64,000 nucleotides of DNA, from IMG/VR virus record IMGVR_UViG_3300044627_004527, positions 1 through 64,000 of that record; one strand, given 5' to 3'. Positions within the stretch are counted from its first letter, which is position 1, and every line of letters starts with the position of its first letter. The notes beneath the pieces were generated by a model. It did no database searches. It saw only the letters and a list, made by a program, of their open reading frames with translations, and was not told where the DNA came from. Shown here piece by piece: positions 22,788 through 50,659 of the stretch. The stretch is from a virus. The position numbers and the translations under genes were made by a program.

Positions 22788-23392
22788 GTTCTCTTGAACT
22801 CCTCAGCGGTGATGATCTTGTCGACGAGCTTGACCTCAAACAACGGCTGCATAGACCAGAACTGATCGTCTGCGCGCAGGCCACCAGCCGCCTCGCGTGC
22901 CAGAGCCTCTTTATAGCACACTCTCAGCTCCATAAGCAAGCGACCAAGGATGTTTCTGCCAACCAGACGGTCGAGCTGGGGCACTGTGCCCCAGAAGGTG
23001 TCCTTGTGAGACCTCTCCACGATGTAACGGTCTCCTGTCTCAAGAAGCAGAGCACCAAAGGCCTTCTCATTGCAGATGAGCTTGCACTTGATGACCCACC
23101 GCATCACCTCGACGCGGATACTGTCCCAGTCTGCCCTGTGATCGGCTACACAGCTCTTGGCCTTGAGCTTCGAGGTGAAGGCGTTCTTGTCAGCGAGGAT
23201 GGCGGCCTGGACGTCAGAGCGGTCTGGCAGCTTCATCGCCTGATAGAGAGCCTCGGAGCTGAAGCACTGGAATCCGACGCATGAGATGGGGTATCCGCCT
23301 GCCATATTCGACAGGCCACCCCACTTCTCTTTTGTCTTGTGAAAGATGGCGACGGTGTCGTCCATCGGATAACTTCTTGTTTTGTCAGTCAT
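22784..23392 (-). CDS. NADAR-domain protein (YbiA-like)
   Basis: At 202 residues it shows NADAR motifs in order: WGGLSNM, FSSEALYQAMKL, a helical core ending WDSIRVEVMRWVIKCKL, LLETGDRYIVERS and DTFWG. NADAR proteins are N-glycosidases; some remove ADP-ribose from guanine or from DNA, and a T4-type NADAR protein (AdfN) blocks DarT-based phage defence. Its setting next to DUF262 and near a macrodomain fits counter-defence. An NAD-precursor or riboflavin-intermediate role is the alternative. Confidence 0.85.
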   Translation of the reverse strand: MTDKTRSYPMDDTVAIFHKTKEKWGGLSNMAGGYPISCVGFQCFSSEALYQAMKLPDRSDVQAAILADKNAFTSKLKAKSCVADHRADWDSIRVEVMRWVIKCKLICNEKAFGALLLETGDRYIVERSHKDTFWGTVPQLDRLVGRNILGRLLMELRVCYKEALAREAAGGLRADDQFWSMQPLFEVKLVDKIITAEEFKRT

Positions 23393-24501
23393 TTCTCTTC
23401 CTCTGCGAGCTTGTCCAGGAAGGACATATCGACGGGCACGCCAGCCATGTTGATGCGCTTGAACACCTTGACCGCCTCCTTGAGCGAGCCGCCTTCGCCA
23501 AGGCTGAAGCGATTCATTGCAAGGTTGGAGCGGCTGAGCAGCTTCTCTTCAAAGCTCTCGATCATGTCAGTGAAGTGCGAGATCTTATCCGCGTCCTCCT
23601 TGTTGTCGCCGATCTCCAGCGCCTCCTTGAAGCGCTCTCGGATCGAGCGGAGCTCAGCGGCGTTACTCCGCTCGATCTTCTGGATCTCTTTCTTGCGATC
23701 GCTCTTCTGCTTGGCCGTGTACTCGGCACCCCGAAGCGTCATGGGCGGCTCGGGTAGCTCGCGGATGAGCTGATTGGCTTCATTGTACTGGTCGAGCAGC
23801 TCGTCCTCGTTCTCCACGCGAGCAAAAGGAGAACCATGCCGCTCGCGGGTGCGATAGCGCATCATCTCTTCGTGCATACGGTAGCGCCACAGGGTCAGTG
23901 AAGAGGTCTTGCGAGAGATGCTGTTGAGATGCGGATCTTTGCAGGGCGCCAGAGCGGGCTTTGACAGCATGGCCTGGACTTTCTCAAGATCACGCCAGTT
24001 GGCCCCGAGCTTTCTGCCATCGCGAGAGAAGTGGTAAGCGTAGATCTCAGTGATGCTGATATACGGGAAGACATCACCATCACGCTCTTGCTGCTCAGCC
24101 GTCAGAACTTTCCAGTGGTCCGTCATAGGATTGTAGAGCAGTCGGTAGTCGCCGCTGACGAACAGCTTGTACAGCGTCTGAAGCCGCTGGGCGCCATCCA
24201 GCACATACAGATAGTCAGGCTTGATGCCACGATCAACGACGTGCTTGTGGCAGGCATCAACGCCTTCCTGGGTCAGCCACACGTTCTTGATCGGCAGAAG
24301 CGGGAGGCCTGCCGCGCCGATGGTGGTGATGGCTCCGATCGGGTATTGCTTGACCAGCGAGTCGATGAGCTCCTCAACATTGTCCTTGGTCCAGACGTAC
24401 TCGCGTTGGAACTCAGGGATCACGAGATCTCCCTGGATTACGCTGGTCAAAGCCCAGTAGATGGAGGTCGTCGCGATCCGCATCTCAATTTTTCTACTCA
24501 T
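23389..24501 (-). CDS. DUF262/GmrS-N-type (ParB-fold) protein
   Basis: At 370 residues, the N-terminal 130 residues match DUF262: IPEFQREYVWTKDNVEELID, then YPIGAITT, then YVLDGAQRLQTLYKLF (DGQQR-type nucleotide-binding motif). A second conserved element, AVKVFKRINMAGVPV, sits near the C-terminus as in other DUF262 proteins. The middle is a charged helical region. No HNH (DUF1524) nuclease domain is seen, so this resembles the GmrS half alone. It overlaps NADAR and the upstream gene by ATGA. Confidence 0.82.
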   Translation of the reverse strand: MSRKIEMRIATTSIYWALTSVIQGDLVIPEFQREYVWTKDNVEELIDSLVKQYPIGAITTIGAAGLPLLPIKNVWLTQEGVDACHKHVVDRGIKPDYLYVLDGAQRLQTLYKLFVSGDYRLLYNPMTDHWKVLTAEQQERDGDVFPYISITEIYAYHFSRDGRKLGANWRDLEKVQAMLSKPALAPCKDPHLNSISRKTSSLTLWRYRMHEEMMRYRTRERHGSPFARVENEDELLDQYNEANQLIRELPEPPMTLRGAEYTAKQKSDRKKEIQKIERSNAAELRSIRERFKEALEIGDNKEDADKISHFTDMIESFEEKLLSRSNLAMNRFSLGEGGSLKEAVKVFKRINMAGVPVDMSFLDKLAEEEK

Positions 24502-30035: not shown

Positions 30036-30830
30036 CTACTCCTTGTAGGCGAAGGCGACCGCGAGCCGCAGGTGGCTGCGAAGTCTTTGGGGGAGACGGC
30101 AGTGAGCTGACGCCTCGCCAGATCTTGTATACAGTAGCACTGATTCCGGCGCAACGATATTTTCCACGCCCTCTCCGTGGGTCTTCATGGAGTCGTGTAA
30201 GTTCTTGTCTGTTCTGATAAATTCGTTGGCTTTTGCAACCAAGTCGAAGCAGACAGTCTCCCACTCATCCTGATGCAGATGAGATGGCTTCATCATGTAG
30301 GTCGGCTTGCTGAGCTTGTCAGCGATAGAGCCGATGTGATTGAGCGAGGCGCTCCCGAGGACGCCGTGGATGAAGAAGTCAGTGAGGTAGGCTTCGAGCT
30401 CATAGTTGAAGCGCTCCTGCTTCGACAGCGCATATCGGTAGATGAACTTGAACGCGCCATCGTCTTTGCGCTGACTGATGTGACACTGCTCGTGGACCAG
30501 CGTCGTGTACCACCAGTCAGGCATGTGGTCTGCATTCCGAATGTCATCATCGGGCCACTGGTCCACCAGCTTGCGCAGCCACTTGTCAGGCACATAGATG
30601 ACCGTGCCGAAGAAGGCGACGACAGTGATGTAGTGGTTCCAGAAGGCATAGGAACGATCGGGCGAGAAGAGCCCGACGATGGCCCAGAAGGGCCAGAAGA
30701 TGAGCCAGTGGATCCAGGTCATGTCCTGCTTGTGCCGCACGACGAGGCTGCGGTGCAGCTTGTTCTTGAGAGCACGCACATGTTGCTTGCGCAGATCGGC
30801 GAGAGCATCGATCTCAGAACGGGATTGCAT
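30036..30830 (-). CDS. membrane protein with HExxH metalloprotease-like motif
   Basis: At 264 residues from ATG 30830, which has AAGGAG six bases upstream (ATG 30833 is the alternative). Hydrophobic segments lie at WIHWLIFWPFWAIVGLF and ITVVAFFGTVIYV. TLVHEQCHISQ near the middle is an HExxH-like zinc site, followed by NYELEAYLTDF that could give the third ligand. A membrane-anchored zinc peptidase is plausible but unproven. It overlaps the dTMP-kinase-like gene. Confidence 0.65.
   Translation of the reverse strand: MQSRSEIDALADLRKQHVRALKNKLHRSLVVRHKQDMTWIHWLIFWPFWAIVGLFSPDRSYAFWNHYITVVAFFGTVIYVPDKWLRKLVDQWPDDDIRNADHMPDWWYTTLVHEQCHISQRKDDGAFKFIYRYALSKQERFNYELEAYLTDFFIHGVLGSASLNHIGSIADKLSKPTYMMKPSHLHQDEWETVCFDLVAKANEFIRTDKNLHDSMKTHGEGVENIVAPESVLLYTRSGEASAHCRLPQRLRSHLRLAVAFAYKE
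30126..30154 (-). promoter_or_regulatory. promoter of the shared family, upstream of the macrodomain gene
   Basis: Minus strand: AAAATATCG then TTGCGC, a 17-base spacer containing CAGTGCTACTG, then TATACA. It lies in the 3' end of the membrane-protein gene and would fire the macrodomain gene alone up to the terminator at 29508. Confidence 0.6.
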
Positions 30831-31848
30831 CATCAGCTCCTTGTGCCACAGCTCCATCGACGGCAGATTCCACTCCAGGCGCATCTGCTTTGACAGTCCC
30901 CGATTGGCGCGGTTCGTCCGCCACCTTGAATTGAGCGGGTAAGAGATCTTTGACTTCGTTCGCAAAATTGCCACGGCTGATCACCATGCTGTTGTATTGC
31001 TTTTGATGCGCCGCCATAGTGACGACATCGTCGGCAAGGAGCTCCATCATGGAGCCGACATCGCTGTGGTTCTCCAGGAAGGATGTCACCATGAAGATGT
31101 GCCCTCCGCCAGGCTTCGCGAAGGATACAACGCTCTTCTTGGAATGTCGGGTGATGCTGCTCAGCTCAGCGACGACGATCCCATTGCTCGCCAGATTGAT
31201 TGGCTGAATGCCGAGCGCAACCCGAGCCATGCCGTACAAAGCAGGCTCAGCTCGATCACAGTGCTTCTCAGCCAGCGCAGTGACCAGCCGCGAAGTGAGC
31301 TTGCGATACTCCTCCGGGATGTGAGATTTCTCGCTGAGGCTGAGCAGCTTCACGAACAGATCGTTCGGCGAGATGTCGGCGGTCTTCTCGGCGCTTGAGA
31401 GGACATCTTCGATCACGCGCAGGTGACGAGACTTCCTGATGGCCAGATCAGAACCATTCATGCAGATGATGATCACCTTGTCGAACAGCCTGAAGACGCC
31501 TTCATAGGCGTTCAGTGCCATCTTGACCGGATCGGCTTTCTTGGACTGAACGCCTTGGTACACGATGGTCGACGCAGCCCATCGATCGCAGACGTAGTAG
31601 TGATCGCGATCGCCGTGTGTCTGCACGAAGCCAGACATCTTCTTGACCTGATCGTGCAGCATGGCATCGAAGGTCTTCGGGATCCCTTCGGTCGGGAAGT
31701 GGTAGTAGGTCGCCAGAGCCCCGAGGCCTCTTTCATCTGACAAGCCGTTGAGCTTGGAGTAGAGGTGCTTGCAGAAGGTCGTCTTGCCGACACCACCGGG
31801 ACCATCAACGAGGAGCAGGACTCTCATGCCAGGACGTTCATCGCTCAT
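30814..31848 (-). CDS. dTMP-kinase-like P-loop kinase with C-terminal extension
   Basis: At 344 residues, DGPGGVGKTTFCKHL is the P loop, and VCDRWAASTIVYQG matches the DR-x-x-x-S-x-x-x-YQG region of thymidylate kinases. The C-terminal 130 residues are extra and end in an acidic tail. With dCTP deaminase and the reductase it would supply dTTP. It is not the Pnkp-type kinase, whose motifs differ. ATGA links it to the metallophosphoesterase gene. Confidence 0.72.
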   Translation of the reverse strand: MSDERPGMRVLLLVDGPGGVGKTTFCKHLYSKLNGLSDERGLGALATYYHFPTEGIPKTFDAMLHDQVKKMSGFVQTHGDRDHYYVCDRWAASTIVYQGVQSKKADPVKMALNAYEGVFRLFDKVIIICMNGSDLAIRKSRHLRVIEDVLSSAEKTADISPNDLFVKLLSLSEKSHIPEEYRKLTSRLVTALAEKHCDRAEPALYGMARVALGIQPINLASNGIVVAELSSITRHSKKSVVSFAKPGGGHIFMVTSFLENHSDVGSMMELLADDVVTMAAHQKQYNSMVISRGNFANEVKDLLPAQFKVADEPRQSGTVKADAPGVESAVDGAVAQGADDAIPF

Positions 31849-32861
31849 AACTCATACACCTCGAAGTACAGGCCAAACTGCCTCAGACCTTCTGGGAGCA
31901 GCCGACCGGCTTGATTGATTTGATTGCTGATCGTATCGAGCACTGTGAACCGCGTGGTGTCATCGTCGATCCGGCCATACTTGTGCCAGTGACCCATGAC
32001 CCACTTCTGCGGCTTGACCTTCTCGTAGAGCTCTGCGAGCAGGTGCCGAGAAGGCTCATACACCGAAGCCACCTGATTTTGCAACGTGAATTTATCCATC
32101 ACGATCTGCTGTGGCGCCGTGTGCGAGATGACGAGCTTGACTGGGCCATTCACTGCCAGCGCTCGATCGATGTCTTCTCGGCTGATCTGCTCACCGATAG
32201 ACCAGTGGCGAAAGTCTTTGATTCCTTCTACTTGCAGAAGCATACGCCTCAGCATCTTGAAGGTTTTTTCGCCGCGCTTGAAATGATCGTTATGGATCCA
32301 GTTGAGGATCTCGTTACGGCCCTTCTTGACTCGGACGGCATTGAGCAGGTCCAGTGAGTCCTGAATGCCGTATGAGGTCGTTCTGGGCTTCATCGCCAGC
32401 TTGATGCTGCCGTTGCCTGGCCAGGTATCGATCTCTCTGAGCAGCGCGTGCGCGGTGAGCTCGTTCGCAGAGCAGATGTCAACCAGCCTGCTGGCCATGT
32501 CGAACCACACGCTATCGGCTCCACCGATGTACAGCACGCCCGTAGAGGCGTCGTATTCGCCTCTACGACGGAAGTGCCAGCCTGTCTGCTCCAGCAGCTC
32601 CTCGACGAAACCAGGCGTGTTGAGAGCGATGTGGTCATCGTGGTTGCCATCAATGAACTCGAAGCGTGACTCAGGCCAGCAGGCCGTGATCTCTTTGAGC
32701 TCCTGGAGACGCCAGACCCAGTCTTTCTTGCGAGGGTAGATGCCCATGTCTCCGACGACACAGAAGGTGTCGATACCCTCGTTGCGAGACCTGATCTTCT
32801 CGATCAGGTCGTAGAGACCTGCAAAGTCTCCATGTACATCACCGACTGCGCACAGCTTCAT
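31845..32861 (-). CDS. metallophosphoesterase (PPP-like)
   Basis: At 338 residues, it has VGDVHGDFAGL, CVVGDMGIY, FIDGNHDDH, ISHTAPQQ and MGHWHKYG, a complete two-metal site. It resembles Ser/Thr-type phosphatases more than nucleases. Its substrate is unknown. GGAGATCCCC precedes ATG 32861, inside the end of the upstream gene. Confidence 0.85.
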   Translation of the reverse strand: MKLCAVGDVHGDFAGLYDLIEKIRSRNEGIDTFCVVGDMGIYPRKKDWVWRLQELKEITACWPESRFEFIDGNHDDHIALNTPGFVEELLEQTGWHFRRRGEYDASTGVLYIGGADSVWFDMASRLVDICSANELTAHALLREIDTWPGNGSIKLAMKPRTTSYGIQDSLDLLNAVRVKKGRNEILNWIHNDHFKRGEKTFKMLRRMLLQVEGIKDFRHWSIGEQISREDIDRALAVNGPVKLVISHTAPQQIVMDKFTLQNQVASVYEPSRHLLAELYEKVKPQKWVMGHWHKYGRIDDDTTRFTVLDTISNQINQAGRLLPEGLRQFGLYFEVYEL

Positions 32862-43133: not shown

Positions 43134-44453
43134 TCACAGTCTGATGTCGATCTTCTTGTCTTGCTCACACGCGAGCACATGGAGCTTCGAGAGGTACATC
43201 GTGTCCTCCAAAGACTCAAGCTCTCGCTCGTTGCCGCTTGACCACTCCTCGAACTGGATGTCAGAGAGGCGCTGGCGGGCCAGCAGACCACCGAGGGCAA
43301 GCTGATACTCGACAGCCGACAACATGCGCTTCCTGGCGGTCGAGCGGCCCTTGAACAGCTTGAAGCTTTCAGGCTCGGTGTAGTTCACACCATAGGTCAG
43401 GCGCATGTACTCACGACCACGGCACTTCATCGCCGGGATGATGAACTGCTTGGTCGCAGGGTCGGTCCTGTACTCTCGCGTCTTGAAGACAAAGCCTTCT
43501 CCACCACAGCCTGTGTAGGCAAGCCACTTGTCAGTGACATATTCACAGCTCTCCTCGTCATTGAGGTCGACCAGATGGGTCTTGACGGGCACCAGACGCC
43601 GCATCTTGTGCATCGACATCTGGTTGATGATGAACTGCACGCTAAAGGCGGGCTGCTGCACCTCGTAGTGGTCTGCCGGAGCGCCTTCACCCTCAAGCGA
43701 GATCGCGAGGATGTCTAACACGTTGAACTGTGCGTCCTTGAGAGCAGACTGATTGTCTGGCAGATACCAGTCGATGAGCTGGAGCATCTGAGATGCGTTG
43801 TGCTCACGCTGGTTGATGTCTTGCGGATCAAACAGACATGGCTTGACATCACCATCGGGAGCTGCCACAAACTTGGCCTGAGTCCCGAGGCGATACGCCA
43901 GCCGATCGTAGTAGTTCTTGGCGGACAGCGCCGAGCGACGGAAGACCTTGTTGCCGAGCTTGCCAGACTTGAGGCTCCACGGCATCGCCTCAGTATCAAG
44001 GAGGCATGTGGCGTAGTTGTGAGGCATCATGTAGCGAAGGTCTGCCAGCACGTCCTTCATGATCTCGGTCGTCGTCTGGCGGTCGAAGAAGGGCCTGCCA
44101 GAGCGGCTCCAGATCTGGCTCTTCTCTGGCTCATCGCGCACAGCCAGGATCGTCGCTCTCGAACCCATGAGTTTCTCCTGAGCGAACAGGAAGTCGACAC
44201 GCTTGGCGCGGTAGTAGGCGAAGACATCCCTGGGGTGTTCCAGGTAGCCCATCGAATGGGTCGCATCAGAGGTGTCGGGCGGGGAGATGGTGGGAGCGAT
44301 GAAGCTGCACTCCTTGCAGACAGAGGTCTCCAACTGCTCGAACGCGCTCTCAAGCTGGTCGGCGGTGAGGCGGTATTCGAGGGGGGCGGCCCCAGCGATG
44401 GGGCTCGGAGTGGTGAAGCGATTCGGGGTCAGCAGGTTCTTGATGTCGAGCAT
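43134..44453 (-). CDS. stand-alone Pnkp-type RNA ligase
   Basis: About 439 residues, matching the C-terminal ligase domain of bacterial Pnkp from end to end: YLEHPRDVFAYYR, motif I QEKLMGSRA with the nucleotidyl Lys near 94, WSRSGRPFF, LLDTEAMPWS, motif IV GGEGFVFK and motif V IPAMKCRGREYMRL, then the helical end module. In bacteria this domain seals broken RNA when joined by Hen1, which helps it adenylylate. The kinase and phosphatase domains of Pnkp are absent. ATG 44453 is preferred; GTG 44462 would give a GTGA overlap with Hen1. Confidence 0.9.
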   Translation of the reverse strand: MLDIKNLLTPNRFTTPSPIAGAAPLEYRLTADQLESAFEQLETSVCKECSFIAPTISPPDTSDATHSMGYLEHPRDVFAYYRAKRVDFLFAQEKLMGSRATILAVRDEPEKSQIWSRSGRPFFDRQTTTEIMKDVLADLRYMMPHNYATCLLDTEAMPWSLKSGKLGNKVFRRSALSAKNYYDRLAYRLGTQAKFVAAPDGDVKPCLFDPQDINQREHNASQMLQLIDWYLPDNQSALKDAQFNVLDILAISLEGEGAPADHYEVQQPAFSVQFIINQMSMHKMRRLVPVKTHLVDLNDEESCEYVTDKWLAYTGCGGEGFVFKTREYRTDPATKQFIIPAMKCRGREYMRLTYGVNYTEPESFKLFKGRSTARKRMLSAVEYQLALGGLLARQRLSDIQFEEWSSGNERELESLEDTMYLSKLHVLACEQDKKIDIRL

Positions 44454-44458
44454 GTTGG

Positions 44459-46207
44459 TCACTTCCAGGTGGGGTTGAGAGACAGGATAGCAGACTCACC
44501 GGCGAACATGGGTGCAGCACGGTGAGTGAAGAACACGAACAGGAACGAGGCGGCCTGGGCTTTGTCGTTGATCGCAACAGGATCACCGACCATGCCGAAG
44601 CGAACGCCCTCAAACAGAGGCGGCAGATCGGGCTCAGCCTTGCTGCGGGCGAGCATCATGTCGCAGAACTTCTGAGGCGACATCTCACCATCAAACTCCA
44701 TCTCCCAACGATGGTCCCAGTGACGGAACTCGCGCTTGGGGGTGCCTGGAGCAGCATACTTCTCATGCAGCACAGAGTTGTATGCCTTGTTGGGCGTCGT
44801 CACGATCAGCACCTCGGGAGCATACCACTTGATGACCTCGATGGCCTGGCTGACGTCGGACAGATCCAGGTGCTCGATGACCTCCGATAAGATCATGACG
44901 TCACACAGATCGCGCAGCCGGGAGTCGCGGTGGCGAATCGAGCTCTGATAGACAGCGCCGGGCGCTCCGGTGCGCGCGAGCTTGCGCTTGACGATGCCGA
45001 CGTTCTTCATTCCTGGATCAATGCCGATCAGGTTCGGACGCTTGGGCTGATCCTCGCCCCACTTCGCGAGCTTCTTCATGAGCTGACCAGTCGAGCAGCC
45101 AGCATCGACGATGGTGTATGGCTGAGGCAGCTTCACACGGTCCAGGAGCGACAGGATCGCCTTGTGCCGACGCTCATGAAGGGAGAGCTCTTCGGTGGTC
45201 TCAGAAGAGCTCTTTGGGGCCTCCTCGACCTCTTCTGCATCGGCTTTGACGGCCAGGTAGTCAGAGAAGGAGTCGAACGCTGCATTGGCGAGCTGCTTGT
45301 TGCCTGCGAAGAACCTGTCACAGCTCTCGCGGATGACATCCGCCACAAAGCGCTTGCCCTCGTGACCGAAGACCGCGTCCAGACGCTCCTGACTCGGGAA
45401 CAACACAGGGCGACAGAACCGATCGAAGCGCTCCATCTCATCGGCGCCCATGTAGTAGTGCTTGTTCCTGTCGAGCAGGTGCCCGAGCAGATACACGAAC
45501 GAGAGCAGATCAGCAGTGGTGCCACGATACTCAAGCACCATGTTTGTCAGGCCATGCGCTGGGAGCGAACCCTTGGCGAACATGACGGCTTTGTCGCGCT
45601 GGCTGTACAGCGTCCGATGGACATGATCGTCAGACTGAAAGTGGAGGTAGGAGTAATGGATGCCGTGATCGCCCTCGGGATCTTTGACAGCCAGCGCGCC
45701 CATATGGTTGAACAGACTCCTCAGATAACGAACGTCGCTCTCGTCTTCGATGACGACGTTGCTGATGTCAACCACGAAGTTGAAGATCGCATCGGCCAGA
45801 GGATGCTCGACACCACGGTTCATGGTCTTCGAGAACATCTTGACCAGCGCTGTGGCTGTGTGCGTGCCGAATGTGAACGCGGTGTCGTTGACGAACGCCT
45901 CCAGAGGGTGAGTCTTGTAGCTGCCCGAACCACGCACGATCTTGTTCTCGTCGATGACAGGGATGAGCGTGAAGCTCATGAGCCCCAGATGATCTCCAGG
46001 CTCGATGTAGTCGGCGCAGCGAAAGTCCTGAATGAAATCAGGCTTTGTCACCATGTCGAACATCAGGTGGGCTTTGCCAAACGAGAGATCCTTGGTATGG
46101 GTGTTGGCAGGGTTCTTCTGGAGCACATAGCCGATCTCGGAGGCGTCCTTCAGATCGTGACGATCCAGATCGGGCTGAGTCATGAACATGTCGATGCTGA
46201 TGATCAT
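44459..46207 (-). CDS. hen1: bacterial-type Hen1, RNA 3'-terminal 2'-O-methyltransferase
   Basis: At 582 residues, the N-terminal domain (about 1-250) matches the ligase-activating part of bacterial Hen1: DASEIGYVLQKNP, DLSFGKAHLMF, AFVNDTAFT. The C-terminal domain has the AdoMet site IVDAGCSTGQL (about 366-376), the metal ligands in SEVIEHL (Glu442, Glu445, His446) and RHWDHRWE, and IVTTPNKAYN. It methylates the 3' end at the break before sealing, so repaired RNA resists re-cutting. A charged linker of about 90 residues joins the domains. AAGGAAA precedes ATG 46207. Confidence 0.93.
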   Translation of the reverse strand: MIISIDMFMTQPDLDRHDLKDASEIGYVLQKNPANTHTKDLSFGKAHLMFDMVTKPDFIQDFRCADYIEPGDHLGLMSFTLIPVIDENKIVRGSGSYKTHPLEAFVNDTAFTFGTHTATALVKMFSKTMNRGVEHPLADAIFNFVVDISNVVIEDESDVRYLRSLFNHMGALAVKDPEGDHGIHYSYLHFQSDDHVHRTLYSQRDKAVMFAKGSLPAHGLTNMVLEYRGTTADLLSFVYLLGHLLDRNKHYYMGADEMERFDRFCRPVLFPSQERLDAVFGHEGKRFVADVIRESCDRFFAGNKQLANAAFDSFSDYLAVKADAEEVEEAPKSSSETTEELSLHERRHKAILSLLDRVKLPQPYTIVDAGCSTGQLMKKLAKWGEDQPKRPNLIGIDPGMKNVGIVKRKLARTGAPGAVYQSSIRHRDSRLRDLCDVMILSEVIEHLDLSDVSQAIEVIKWYAPEVLIVTTPNKAYNSVLHEKYAAPGTPKREFRHWDHRWEMEFDGEMSPQKFCDMMLARSKAEPDLPPLFEGVRFGMVGDPVAINDKAQAASFLFVFFTHRAAPMFAGESAILSLNPTWK

Positions 46208-46208
46208 A

Positions 46209-47495
46209 TTATCTTTTCCTTGTGGAGTCGACCAGGAACTGGGTCATGTTGGCGGGGTTGGTGGTAGCGGTGACGGTCGTAAAGACCTTGTTCCACTCAC
46301 TATCAAGACTATCATGAACGATGAGCGCATGGCAACGAGTTTCGCCGATCATATTATTGATCTCTTGAACTGTCGTCATGGGACACTGGTCTTCGAGGTC
46401 AGAGATGATGACAAAGTCGGGCTGAATGGTATCTCCAGCCCTGGCTTTGAAATCTACCAGTGATTTGAAGCACCTTTTGATGTCTGTTCCATCTGTGCCT
46501 TTGCAGCTCTTCACGAGCTTCTCCATCGCATCGATCAACCTCGGGTAGTCCTTCGACGAGAAGAGGTGCCTTGTCGAGCTGCCAAACAGGAACATCTCAA
46601 ACTCACGCTTCTCTTTGTAGCAGATGCGCATGAGCACGAGGATGAGCGCTGCGGCGAGCTGGTAGCGATGGACGTGAAGGCCTTGATCAAGTTTGAGCTC
46701 AGCGCTCATCGAGCCAGAGATGTCAAGCGCCAGGTACAGCGGTCCACGATTGCTACCCTCCTTGTGCTCCTTGTCGAATTGGAGCAGGCGTCCAGTGACG
46801 AACTTCAGACGGAACAGGCGGCGCAGAGAGGGATTGGCCAGCGCCAGGAGCTCACTTGACAACACATGAGAGATCTGCCTGCCGAACTTGACATCGACCG
46901 GCACCGTGTTGCTCGGGAACACCTGCGTCTTGAACATGGCAGAGTAGCTGCGAAAGAAGCGGCCCATGAGCTTCATGACAGCGGCAAAGTTGGGCTCGCT
47001 GCACAGACCCACGATCCGCTGGAGATCCTCCAGGGTCTGGCCGGTGATCTGATCGACCCTGTTGCCAGGCTGATCGCCTCTCTCAGACTGAAGCAGGTCC
47101 ATGAGATCTGCATGAGCCTCAAGCGCTGCATCGAGCTCTGGCTTGACCTTCTCGTTGATCAGGCCAGACATCAAGTCGCCAAGCTCATTGCCTTTGCAGC
47201 CTTTCTTTTTGGCCTCCTGATAGGGCTCATCGACGTACTTGTGGACGAGATAACTCATGTAGAGTGAGTGGAAAGGATCTCCGCGACTGAGCTCGACGTG
47301 GGTGTCGAAGTAGTGGCTGGAATGCCTGGCTGCATCGATCAGCTCGTGAGACCTGCCACGATAGAGAGAGCCGTACAGATCCACGATTTGCTCTTGGATA
47401 GCAGGCTCAGCTTTTTTGTATTCGTCGACAAAGAGGTGCTTCGCGCCGTAGTGCAGAAACACATCCCTGTCCATCTCAGCCATCCATTCATTCAT
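46209..47495 (-). CDS. von Willebrand factor A domain protein (ViaA/CoxE-like)
   Basis: At 428 residues, the C-terminal 180 carry a complete MIDAS: LALDISGSMS, then KGTDGTDIKRCF and IISDLEDQ. The N-terminal 250 residues are helical. The size and order match vWA partners of MoxR/RavA ATPases, and a RavA-like gene lies in the same operon. ATG 47495 overlaps the preceding stop (ATGA); Hen1 begins one base after its stop. Confidence 0.88.
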   Translation of the reverse strand: MNEWMAEMDRDVFLHYGAKHLFVDEYKKAEPAIQEQIVDLYGSLYRGRSHELIDAARHSSHYFDTHVELSRGDPFHSLYMSYLVHKYVDEPYQEAKKKGCKGNELGDLMSGLINEKVKPELDAALEAHADLMDLLQSERGDQPGNRVDQITGQTLEDLQRIVGLCSEPNFAAVMKLMGRFFRSYSAMFKTQVFPSNTVPVDVKFGRQISHVLSSELLALANPSLRRLFRLKFVTGRLLQFDKEHKEGSNRGPLYLALDISGSMSAELKLDQGLHVHRYQLAAALILVLMRICYKEKREFEMFLFGSSTRHLFSSKDYPRLIDAMEKLVKSCKGTDGTDIKRCFKSLVDFKARAGDTIQPDFVIISDLEDQCPMTTVQEINNMIGETRCHALIVHDSLDSEWNKVFTTVTATTNPANMTQFLVDSTRKR

Positions 47496-48121
47496 AGGGG
47501 TCTCTTGGACTGCTTGTAAGGAAGTCTCATTTTGGAGCGCTCAGCAGCGATCAAGTCGGACCTCTCTTTGATGATCGAGGCATTGTAAAGAGCGGCATCG
47601 TTACTTACCATGAGATCGCCTTTCTCGAAGGGCGGATCTACAAGGTTGTTCCAACTGTAATGGATCTCACCCACTACATCCTCGTTCACCAACACTTCGA
47701 TGGCGGCGCCACAGATCTGGCCAACGCCAACAAGCATCGCGACGCATGAGGTGCCCATGCGAGCTTTGACAGTGATGCCGCCCATGCTGATCAGGACAGT
47801 GGTATCACCAATCTGGGCTGGAGGCCTGGCGATGATGATGTTGTCGACGCCAGCCTCCTCGACTTTGTGACATACGAGGCGCCAGGGACTGCGTAAGCCA
47901 TTGCAAACCCAGGGCTTGAATGGCTTGCTGGGGTCCATCATTTTGCCGACCATCGCCTCGATCTCGAAGATCCCTTTCTGGATCACCATCTCGCAGAGGA
48001 GCTGATGACGATCATCAGACATGATCTGGTAGGAGGGCGATGGATGAATGACGACATGTTTGTAGTAGAGCAGCAGGGGGTCTTCTGTCCCACCTTCGAT
48101 GACGGTTAATTTTTCTTTCAT
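47492..48121 (-). CDS. unknown protein, operon paralogue A (209 aa)
   Basis: Shares with the next gene upstream KLTVIEGGT, LLYY, a DDRHQLLCEM block, a G-F-IEA-VG block and a NG-RSPW block. Soluble alpha/beta. No known family recognised; the conservation between copies marks likely functional residues (His, Cys, Trp). ATGA overlaps at both ends. Confidence 0.7.
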   Translation of the reverse strand: MKEKLTVIEGGTEDPLLLYYKHVVIHPSPSYQIMSDDRHQLLCEMVIQKGIFEIEAMVGKMMDPSKPFKPWVCNGLRSPWRLVCHKVEEAGVDNIIIARPPAQIGDTTVLISMGGITVKARMGTSCVAMLVGVGQICGAAIEVLVNEDVVGEIHYSWNNLVDPPFEKGDLMVSNDAALYNASIIKERSDLIAAERSKMRLPYKQSKRPL

Positions 48122-48699
48122 GGATTCTCCAGCAAGAAGGCTTGGCGCTGTTTGAGGGCGTTGTCGTTGTACTCTTGCAGACCGGTCTTGAGCGCCTTGA
48201 GACCAAAGCTTACAGGCGGATCAGCCAGGTTGTCCCAGCTATAAACCAGCCTGCCAACATATTTCTCATTGGCGAGTACGTTGATGCAGGCATAGCCTGT
48301 TTCCTGGCCTTCCAGCGCAACAACGACAGGCTGTGCGGCCAGCTCAGCCGAGTAAGTCAGGCCAGCACGACCATCATAGTTCTGCCGTTCACCGACTGCG
48401 GCTGCTGGGTTGCCTGTGGGTCCCCAGACGATGTCAGACTTGAGATGGCTGACAACCTTCCAGGGAGATCTTGTCCCGTTGCTGACAGACGGCTCGAACG
48501 GACCTGGCATGATCTTCAGGCCAACCAGCGCTTCGACGTCGAACAGCCCAGAGGCCCAGATCATCTCACAGAGAAGCTGGTGGCGCTCATCTGTGACGAT
48601 CTCGACCTTGAGCGATGGATGACGAACAGGGCAGTTGTAGTAGAGCAGCCGGGTACAATCTGTGCCGCCCTCGATCACCGTCAACTTTGACTGAGTCAA
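48118..48699 (-). CDS. unknown protein, operon paralogue B (193 aa, TTG start)
   Basis: Tandem relative of the downstream gene (KLTVIEGGT, TDERHQLLCEMIW, NGTRSPWKV). The start is TTG 48699, overlapping the upstream TGA as ATTGA and preceded by GAGGAG five bases away; the longer frame to 48756 has no such site. Function unknown. Confidence 0.7.
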   Translation of the reverse strand: MTQSKLTVIEGGTDCTRLLYYNCPVRHPSLKVEIVTDERHQLLCEMIWASGLFDVEALVGLKIMPGPFEPSVSNGTRSPWKVVSHLKSDIVWGPTGNPAAAVGERQNYDGRAGLTYSAELAAQPVVVALEGQETGYACINVLANEKYVGRLVYSWDNLADPPVSFGLKALKTGLQEYNDNALKQRQAFLLENP

Positions 48700-49100
48700 T
48701 TGAGCTCCTCTCTCTGAATGGCATAGATGCCAAACAAGCAGTAGTGAGCGACGCATACTCCGCTGAAGACAAAGTCCCAGAAGTTCTGGTACGGCGTATT
48801 CGCCGTCATGTGAGCAGCAATGACGAGCGTCACGACCAGCGAAGCAATGCCCAGGAGGCCGACGACATGGATCTTTATCACATGTCGATGGATTTTATTG
48901 ATCTCTGAGGCATTCAATGCACCGCTGGCTTTGACACTACCAGCTTGCACGCCGATCTCGAAGGCGTTGGTCAGCGCGAAGCTGAGGACAAACAGCCGAG
49001 AGATCTCTGGCACACCCATCACATGTGTGATGAAAGCCATGACGAGCAGCGAGATGTTCAGGGCTTTGAACTGCCATGTGTTCAGGCTTTTAATCAGCAT
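48696..49100 (-). CDS. membrane protein of the RNA-repair operon (134 aa)
   Basis: Starts MLIKSLNTWQFKALNISLL with GGAGG upstream. About four hydrophobic segments, including LLGIASLVVTLVIAAHM and FVFSGVCVAHYCLFGIYA. It may tie the module to the membrane. No family recognised. Confidence 0.65.
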   Translation of the reverse strand: MLIKSLNTWQFKALNISLLVMAFITHVMGVPEISRLFVLSFALTNAFEIGVQAGSVKASGALNASEINKIHRHVIKIHVVGLLGIASLVVTLVIAAHMTANTPYQNFWDFVFSGVCVAHYCLFGIYAIQREELN

Positions 49101-49483: not shown

Positions 49484-50659
49484 TTACTTCCTCTGGACGA
49501 GTGTCTCGATATGCTCTTTGAGCTGTCTGCGATCTGACTGGAGCTGCTGCATTGCAGCTCGGCAGTACAGTCCGAGCGACGGGTCGTTCTCTAGCATCGC
49601 CAGCATGATCTTGTCAAGCTCATTGATTGCAGTCTGATGCTTCATGGCATCAGCGTATCGAGAGGCCTGACGAGCTGTGGCGATGGCAGCTCTGATGTCA
49701 TTGAGCGTTGTCTGGAAGTCGGCCAGCGAGTGGTCGCAAGCCTGAGCGATTGTGTTCTGGATCGGCCCACGCTGCGAAGGCTCATCCCACAGGCAGTCGC
49801 GCAGGTAGAAGAGGTCGTTACGCACGAGCTTCTCACGTCCGGCAATCCATGCGCTTGCCTTGGCAAATTGGACGGCCTGACCCCAGCGACGGTCAGAGAT
49901 CTGGACGTCGCCGTGCTTGAGGTTGAACGTCTGGCGCAGCTTGGAGAGGTGGTTGGCAAACTCGGGAGTCACCAGGACCTTCGATGCTTCTTCAGCCGCA
50001 TACTCCAGCATCTTGAGCGTGAGCTTCGGCATGGTGCGACCATCCTCCCCGTTCTCCCACCGCCGCTTGGCTGCGATATGCCCGCCCCGAGCATACTCGG
50101 CAAACATCAGCGGGTCCTGGATGGGTAGCACCTGGGTGCGAACGAGGAAGCGGTCATAGAAGGCCTCAAGGCCCTCCTGTGGGAGCTCATTCGAGGCGCC
50201 GAAGGCAGAGACAAGGGCTGTGTTGACGCGCTGGCTGCCGTTGGTGAAGCGGCGCTCGTTCAGCAGCTCCAGCAGCGCGTTCAGCAGCACGGAGTTGGCC
50301 TTGAAGACCTCGTCAGCGAGGAAGAAGTGCGCATCAGGGAGCATGTCCTTGTAGTTGAAGCGCAGCTCGTTTTCCTGCTCGAAAGCCTTGAGGTCGATCG
50401 GACCGAGGACCTCTGAGAGCTCGGTCATCGCCGAGAACAGCTTCTTGAAGCAGCGGCCTTCGACGCAGCGAGACAGCTCCTCAAGGATGTAGGACTTGGC
50501 GACACCCGGTGGTCCCAGCATGAACATGTGCTGTCGTGCCACGATGACAGCGATGATGAGCTCGATCTCGCGAGACCGCTCATAGCTGATCTCGTTCAAG
50601 AAGCTCTCAAGGTTGCCCAGTAGGGCGCGGATGACATCTGACTTTGTCGTTGTGCTCAA
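49484..50659 (-). CDS. MoxR-family AAA+ ATPase, RavA-like
   Basis: At 391 residues, it has Walker A GPPGVAKS (about 53-60), Walker B FFLADEVFKANSVLLNALLELLNER, sensor 1 SAFGASNELP and an arginine-rich loop FYDRFLVR. These fit the RavA branch. Such ATPases act as hexamers with a vWA partner to remodel protein complexes. The start is TTG 50659, overlapping the upstream TGA (ATTGA) with GAGGA six bases before. The C-terminal 100 residues are helical and may bind the partner. Confidence 0.9.
   Translation of the reverse strand: MSTTTKSDVIRALLGNLESFLNEISYERSREIELIIAVIVARQHMFMLGPPGVAKSYILEELSRCVEGRCFKKLFSAMTELSEVLGPIDLKAFEQENELRFNYKDMLPDAHFFLADEVFKANSVLLNALLELLNERRFTNGSQRVNTALVSAFGASNELPQEGLEAFYDRFLVRTQVLPIQDPLMFAEYARGGHIAAKRRWENGEDGRTMPKLTLKMLEYAAEEASKVLVTPEFANHLSKLRQTFNLKHGDVQISDRRWGQAVQFAKASAWIAGREKLVRNDLFYLRDCLWDEPSQRGPIQNTIAQACDHSLADFQTTLNDIRAAIATARQASRYADAMKHQTAINELDKIMLAMLENDPSLGLYCRAAMQQLQSDRRQLKEHIETLVQRK

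Follow-up and report, generated by a model that had tools for sequence, protein, structure and literature searches.

A phage-encoded Hen1 and stand-alone Pnkp-type RNA ligase in a record with no detectable end-healing enzymes

We analyzed a 64,000-nt stretch of DNA (the window) from IMG/VR virus record IMGVR_UViG_3300044627_004527, a 176,695-bp (176.7-kb) contig classed as linear. Two adjacent genes on the minus strand, spanning 43134-46207, encode a Hen1 homolog and, downstream of it, a Pnkp-type RNA ligase (Table 1). The Hen1 stop and the ligase start overlap by 4 bp (GTGA), so that the ligase start codon, GTG, runs into the Hen1 stop; an alternative ATG is found 9 nt downstream. This overlap indicates translational coupling from Hen1 to ligase. 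GC content and codon usage of both genes are typical for the phage. A gap of 1 bp separates the stop of the VWA gene from the Hen1 ATG, and these genes probably share a transcript. Indeed, the pair probably lies within a longer operon, consisting of MoxR, duplicated unknowns (47492-48756), VWA, Hen1 and ligase. MoxR-type AAA ATPases are the usual partners of VWA proteins. The two unknown proteins encoded between them (47492-48121 and 48118-48756) match each other at E ~1e-39. A functional tie was sought at other viral Hen1/ligase loci, and no MoxR or VWA homologs were found there.

Table 1. Features of the locus and of the phage record
Feature	Coordinates	Strand	Size and basis
Hen1 RNA 2'-O-methyltransferase	44459..46207	minus	582 aa; Pfam PF12623, TIGR04074, PDB 3jwh/4dqz, catalytic residues, AlphaFold model and Foldseek
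Stand-alone Pnkp-type RNA ligase	43134..44462	minus	442 aa; PF16542, TIGR04075, PDB 3ty9/4drf, Foldseek
VWA-domain (ViaA-like) protein	46209..47495	minus	NF008230 3e-10, PF05762; directly upstream of Hen1
MoxR-type (RavA-like) AAA ATPase	49484..50659	minus	PF20030 9.9e-47, NF010054
P-loop protein, thymidylate-kinase signature	30814..31848	minus	PF02223 2.7e-5
Calcineurin-like metallophosphoesterase	31845..32861	minus	PF00149 1.1e-9
28-tRNA array	record G000 (L007) 132.0-137.6 kb

The record carries terminase, portal and DnaB-like helicase genes and is a divergent tailed-phage contig. Its terminase shows at best 28% identity to any in the cultured-phage collection, and none of the IMG/VR contigs searched with it gave a match. 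Single-sequence scans of viral contigs found no close relatives of Hen1, ligase or terminase. About 30 tRNA genes are present, 28 of them in one array and two others near 75.6-76.3 kb. Elsewhere, the phage encodes a GmrSD_N-domain protein (type IV restriction; window 23389-24501, E 2e-26) and a PIN-PhoH fusion protein (L006 6779-8233), a candidate phage RNase.

The Hen1 protein comprises a Hen1_L ligase-activating N-domain (~1-320) and a methyltransferase domain (~340-545). The former matches PF12623 in three stretches (2.3e-16, 60 bits; cut-off 23), the methyltransferase domain is also matched in Pfam, and no Pfam match to Hen1_N was seen. Against TIGR04074 (bacter_Hen1) the protein scores 153 bits (7.8e-45), short of the equivalog cut-off of 340, which marks it as a divergent member. 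Searches of PDB sequences retrieved 3jwh, 3jwj and 4dqz, the Hen1 methyltransferases of Anabaena and C. thermocellum. The metal ligands E442, E445 and H446 (EVIEH) and H499 are conserved among 20 Hen1s compared, as are D368, G370 and G374 of the SAM loop. An AlphaFold model (pLDDT 71.6) retrieved Hen1 structures, Hen1-N included, in Foldseek. The N-domain has an extra low-confidence insert at 175-218, predicted to be disordered.

The ligase was assigned to the PNKP_ligase family by profile, catalytic residues and predicted fold. It matches PF16542 at 4.1e-52 (178 bits; curated cut-off 28.2), and its match to TIGR04075 (bacter_Pnkp) covers only positions 484-819 of 851, the ligase part. The C. 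thermocellum Pnkp ligase (3ty9/4drf) was found among PDB sequences at 1e-28. Catalytic residues K97 (the motif I lysine), R102, E158, E322, K327 and K346 are invariant in 26 sequences, the window ligase and 25 others. In Foldseek, the ligase model (pLDDT 79.8) retrieved first 4e6n_A and 4drf_A (TM 0.80-0.81), Pnkp-C of the Pnkp-C/Hen1-N complex, and with them the Pnkp-C insertion module. Thus family, PDB-sequence and predicted-fold searches concur for both proteins, and chance resemblance is excluded. The original prediction, made from the letters alone, had described a full-length Hen1 with its activating domain and metal ligands, followed by a Pnkp ligase domain with all nucleotidyltransferase motifs. 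Both descriptions hold, profile searches having placed the proteins inside these families rather than outside, and the proposed role in RNA repair is supported by family.

We searched the whole record for enzymes that could heal RNA ends. The Pfam families AAA_33, PNK3P and HAD_PNKP gave no match in the 176.7 kb. Pnkp-kinase and Pnkp-phosphatase profiles built here, run with positive controls, likewise detected nothing; these profiles do recover the split kinases of XacN1, L038, L050 and L053. Neither RNA_ligase (Rnl2) nor RtcB was found in the record. The ligase protein contains no kinase or phosphatase domain, as a complete Pnkp/Hen1 system would, and the Hen1_N-type Hen1 and T4-type Pnkp1 of a Pnkp1-Rnl-Hen1 system are missing, with no Hen1_N and no HAD_PNKP seen. 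Two overlapping genes (30814-31848 and 31845-32861) were considered as a split Pnkp kinase and phosphatase, an idea rejected once Pfam matches and profile scores had been set beside those of positive controls. The first product scored 8.8 bits against the Pnkp kinase profile (controls, 33-98) and probably serves nucleotide metabolism rather than acting as a polynucleotide kinase; the phage also encodes ThyX. The second, which scored 5 bits against the Pnkp phosphatase profile (positive control, 210), is a generic phosphoesterase; although unrelated, it might stand in for the 3' phosphatase. A second, unassigned P-loop protein was near background on the kinase profile, as were metallophosphoesterases on the phosphatase profile; this phage has four metallophosphoesterase-like genes. 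The record, classed as linear, may be a fragment, and kinase or phosphatase genes could sit beyond its ends.

Gene pairs of this kind in phages are known and common, contrary to the original prediction, which knew of no described phage copy. Phage XacN1 was reported in 2018 to encode PNKP (ORF197) and Hen1 (ORF198) (PMC5852040). Its record shows that ORF197 is a 404-aa stand-alone PNKP_ligase; ORF198 encodes a Hen1 carrying Hen1_N, and ORF199 an AAA_33 kinase. A search of other phage genomes, which the prediction had proposed, found the pair in three further cultured lineages, Vibrio phage RYC, Vibrio phage sm033 and Stenotrophomonas phages RAS14/CM1. In RYC and sm033 the stand-alone ligase adjoins a fusion of Hen1 with a T4-type kinase-phosphatase. 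In RAS14 the kinase is encoded separately from ligase and Hen1. The separate kinases of XacN1 and RAS14 are both AAA_33, with no HAD_PNKP. These phages resemble the window phage in encoding adjacent Hen1 and stand-alone Pnkp-type ligase, but their Hen1 is of the Hen1_N type and comes with a kinase. Within the literature searched, phage Pnkp/Hen1-type repair appears only in passing and for one phage, XacN1; the 2016 survey of Burroughs and Aravind, outside that coverage, may mention phage Hen1. A putative Pnkp1-Rnl-Hen1 system has also been reported in Borg elements (PMC11208441).

More than 20 distinct contigs encoding Pnkp-type ligases emerged when IMG/VR was scanned by alignment; Hen1 accompanied the ligase in nearly all of them, and kinase and phosphatase domains usually did too. 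L038 and L053 have the kinase split off as its own gene. Three phage contigs (L011 7269-9422, L012 7290-9470 and L044 9324-11453) fuse Hen1 to a T4-type kinase-phosphatase, with the ligase stand-alone alongside; this is a Pnkp1-Rnl-Hen1 system compacted to two genes. On viral contig L050 (1235-8906), which branches deep in the Hen1_L clade, Hen1, kinase-phosphatase (457 aa) and ligase (363 aa) each have their own gene, and viral contig L039 has a Hen1_L-type Hen1 with no ligase within 8 kb.

Four other viral lineages (L024/L026, L027, L030 and L031) fuse Hen1 to ligase, in that order, in a single polypeptide without kinase or phosphatase domains. These lineages share with the window phage the restriction to Hen1 and ligase, but the window pair is two genes. 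None of the fusion records has an AAA_33 or HAD_PNKP match over cut-off, two records of 245-275 kb included; L031 has one weak sub-threshold match to HAD_PNKP. Terminase is present in the L024/L026, L027 and L030 records. The L024 and L026 contigs come from different samples and match exactly across 17 kb. The L027 fusion is followed by an HAD-like gene and preceded by a divergently oriented Rnl2-type ligase gene; the L026 fusion has a NADAR gene next downstream.

Trees of ligase and of Hen1 each showed two strongly supported clades. Clade A, of the Hen1_N type, contains all four cultured-phage lineages, and clade B, of the Hen1_L type, contains the bacterial Pnkp/Hen1 systems. Inside clade B also falls the window Hen1 (support 98/95). 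The window ligase is at the base of clade B on a long branch, its exact place unsure, and a shift towards A costs no likelihood; the Hen1 branch is long as well. The Hen1-ligase fusions branch deep, near the same clade as the window ligase. An AU test of a single origin for the kinase-less forms (fusions plus the long-branched window ligase) gave p 0.33.

Among characterized systems, bacterial Pnkp/Hen1 (C. thermocellum; 4DRF/4E6N) has in common with the window pair a Hen1_L-type Hen1 and a Pnkp-type ligase of Pnkp-C fold, both with their full set of catalytic residues; in each case hen1 precedes the ligase gene and the two genes overlap at their ends. The window ligase differs in being stand-alone, without kinase and phosphatase domains, at 26-30% identity and on a deep phage branch. 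Among 80 bacterial ligase loci, none had a genuine stand-alone ligase, the two odd cases resembling broken frames. The Capnocytophaga Pnkp1-Rnl-Hen1 system (4XRP/4XRU) does have a stand-alone ligase acting with Hen1, but both proteins are members of the Hen1_N clade and require a T4-type Pnkp1, of which none was found in the window phage. T4 Pnkp/Rnl1 is similar in concept, as phage tRNA repair, but uses a different ligase family and a dedicated kinase-phosphatase, with no methylation. Three points are unusual here. The Hen1 is of the bacterial Hen1_L type, where the known cultured-phage copies are Hen1_N; neither a polynucleotide kinase nor a Pnkp-type phosphatase could be detected in the record; and four other viral lineages join Hen1 and ligase in one protein, likewise without those domains.

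Work on reconstituted relatives suggests how the pair may function. There, the ligase is switched on by the N-domain of Hen1, Rnl-Hen1 by itself can seal tRNA halves bearing 3'-OH/5'-P ends, SAM speeds this reaction at least tenfold, and the methylated repair product withstands colicin D (PMC4411300). By analogy, the Hen1 N-domain would dock on the ligase insertion module and unlock the ligase; Hen1 would 2'-O-methylate the 3'-terminal ribose at the RNA break; and the ligase would adenylate the 5'-phosphate and seal. The repaired RNA, probably tRNA, would then resist a second cut by nucleases that require the 2'-OH. The fusions in other phages are a hint of joint action by the two proteins, and with structures 4DRF/4XRP they lead us to infer a physical heterodimer. 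The pair has sealing and marking but no visible healing steps; therefore, on its own it would suit 3'-OH/5'-P breaks, such as those made by two-metal nucleases. PIN-domain VapC toxins are expected to make such breaks. PARIS AriB leaves 3'-OH/5'-PO4 tRNA ends (PMC12409363). Breaks with 2',3'-cyclic-P/5'-OH ends would make the pair dependent on separate healing enzymes. The original prediction had the pair undoing tRNA-cleaving defence of both the PrrC and the VapC type. The VapC part is compatible with the pair as found. PrrC- or colicin-type breaks would be out of reach for the pair alone because kinase and phosphatase are needed: repair of tRNA cut by a ribotoxin required Pnkp1, Rnl and Hen1 together (PMC4411300).

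Our preferred reading, towards which we lean slightly, is that the two genes form a Hen1-activated seal-and-methylate module of the bacterial Pnkp/Hen1 lineage, which either mends 3'-OH/5'-P breaks alone or needs separate healing enzymes. A benefit against tRNA-cutting defence would fit the ~30 phage tRNAs, consistent with pressure on the tRNA pool. The flanking MoxR and VWA genes, with no known tie to repair, argue against this reading, as does the chemistry: 2'-O-methylation is no obvious shield from two-metal nucleases, in which the 2'-OH is unused. Because such nucleases skip the 2'-OH, methylation fits metal-independent ribotoxins better than a 3'-OH/5'-P specialization. The ends might also be healed by the four metallophosphoesterases or by some of the many uncharacterized phage proteins. 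The methylation chemistry and the metallophosphoesterases favor complete, four-activity repair aimed at metal-independent ribotoxins, with the healing left to enzymes that are separate, unrelated or have escaped detection. These could come from another phage gene (such as 31845-32861 together with an unrecognized kinase), from one lying beyond the contig, or from the host, as a Pnkp or T4-type enzyme. Relatives do scatter their parts, as in the separate kinases of XacN1 and RAS14, the three genes of L050, the split kinases of L038/L053, and the HAD-like gene after the L027 fusion. Yet the only kinase candidates here are the thymidylate-kinase-like protein and the other P-loop protein, these and the metallophosphoesterases score near background, and none of the candidate healing genes adjoins Hen1 or ligase. 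We consider four-activity repair tenable but lean against it.

Other roles can be envisaged. Eukaryotic HEN1 only caps small RNAs, and the phage Hen1 might similarly cap 3' ends of small or tRNA-derived RNAs, with the ligase acting in other RNA processing (circularization, or maturation of introns or phage tRNAs). No in vivo substrates are known across the family, even for bacterial Pnkp/Hen1 (PMC4411300). But bacteria and phages alike encode Hen1 together with ligase, and the ligase-activating N-domain is retained; because of this, methylation appears tied to ligation, and we regard a role outside defence as unlikely. The long branches of both proteins and the disordered insert in the Hen1 N-domain might instead suggest a decaying remnant of an acquired bacterial Pnkp/Hen1 operon that is being lost, its kinase-phosphatase half first. 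We give this idea almost no weight: both ORFs are full length, every catalytic residue is conserved, codon usage is normal and coupling is tight. Moreover, clean fusions without a kinase are seen again in other viral lineages, one of them in the two contigs that match across 17 kb.

Our survey shows Pnkp/Hen1-type repair to be widespread and modular in phages, occurring as full Pnkp, split, kinase-fused and Hen1-ligase fusion forms. For the window pair, the apparent lack of end-cleaning enzymes narrows the kinds of RNA cuts that could be mended. A broader reading, which we hold less likely than not, is a healing-free class of phage RNA repair, in which Hen1 and ligase only, separate or fused, recur in several lineages that diverge close to the base of the clade of bacterial Pnkp/Hen1 systems, and would seal and mark RNA cut by defence nucleases leaving 3'-OH/5'-P ends (e.g. 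PARIS AriB). The three-domain bacterial Pnkp may have been put together from a form that such a class preserves. If our preferred reading is right, the chemistry of this phage repair module would tell which tRNA-cutting defences it can undo, and nuclease end chemistry would be linked to counter-defence in a directly testable way.
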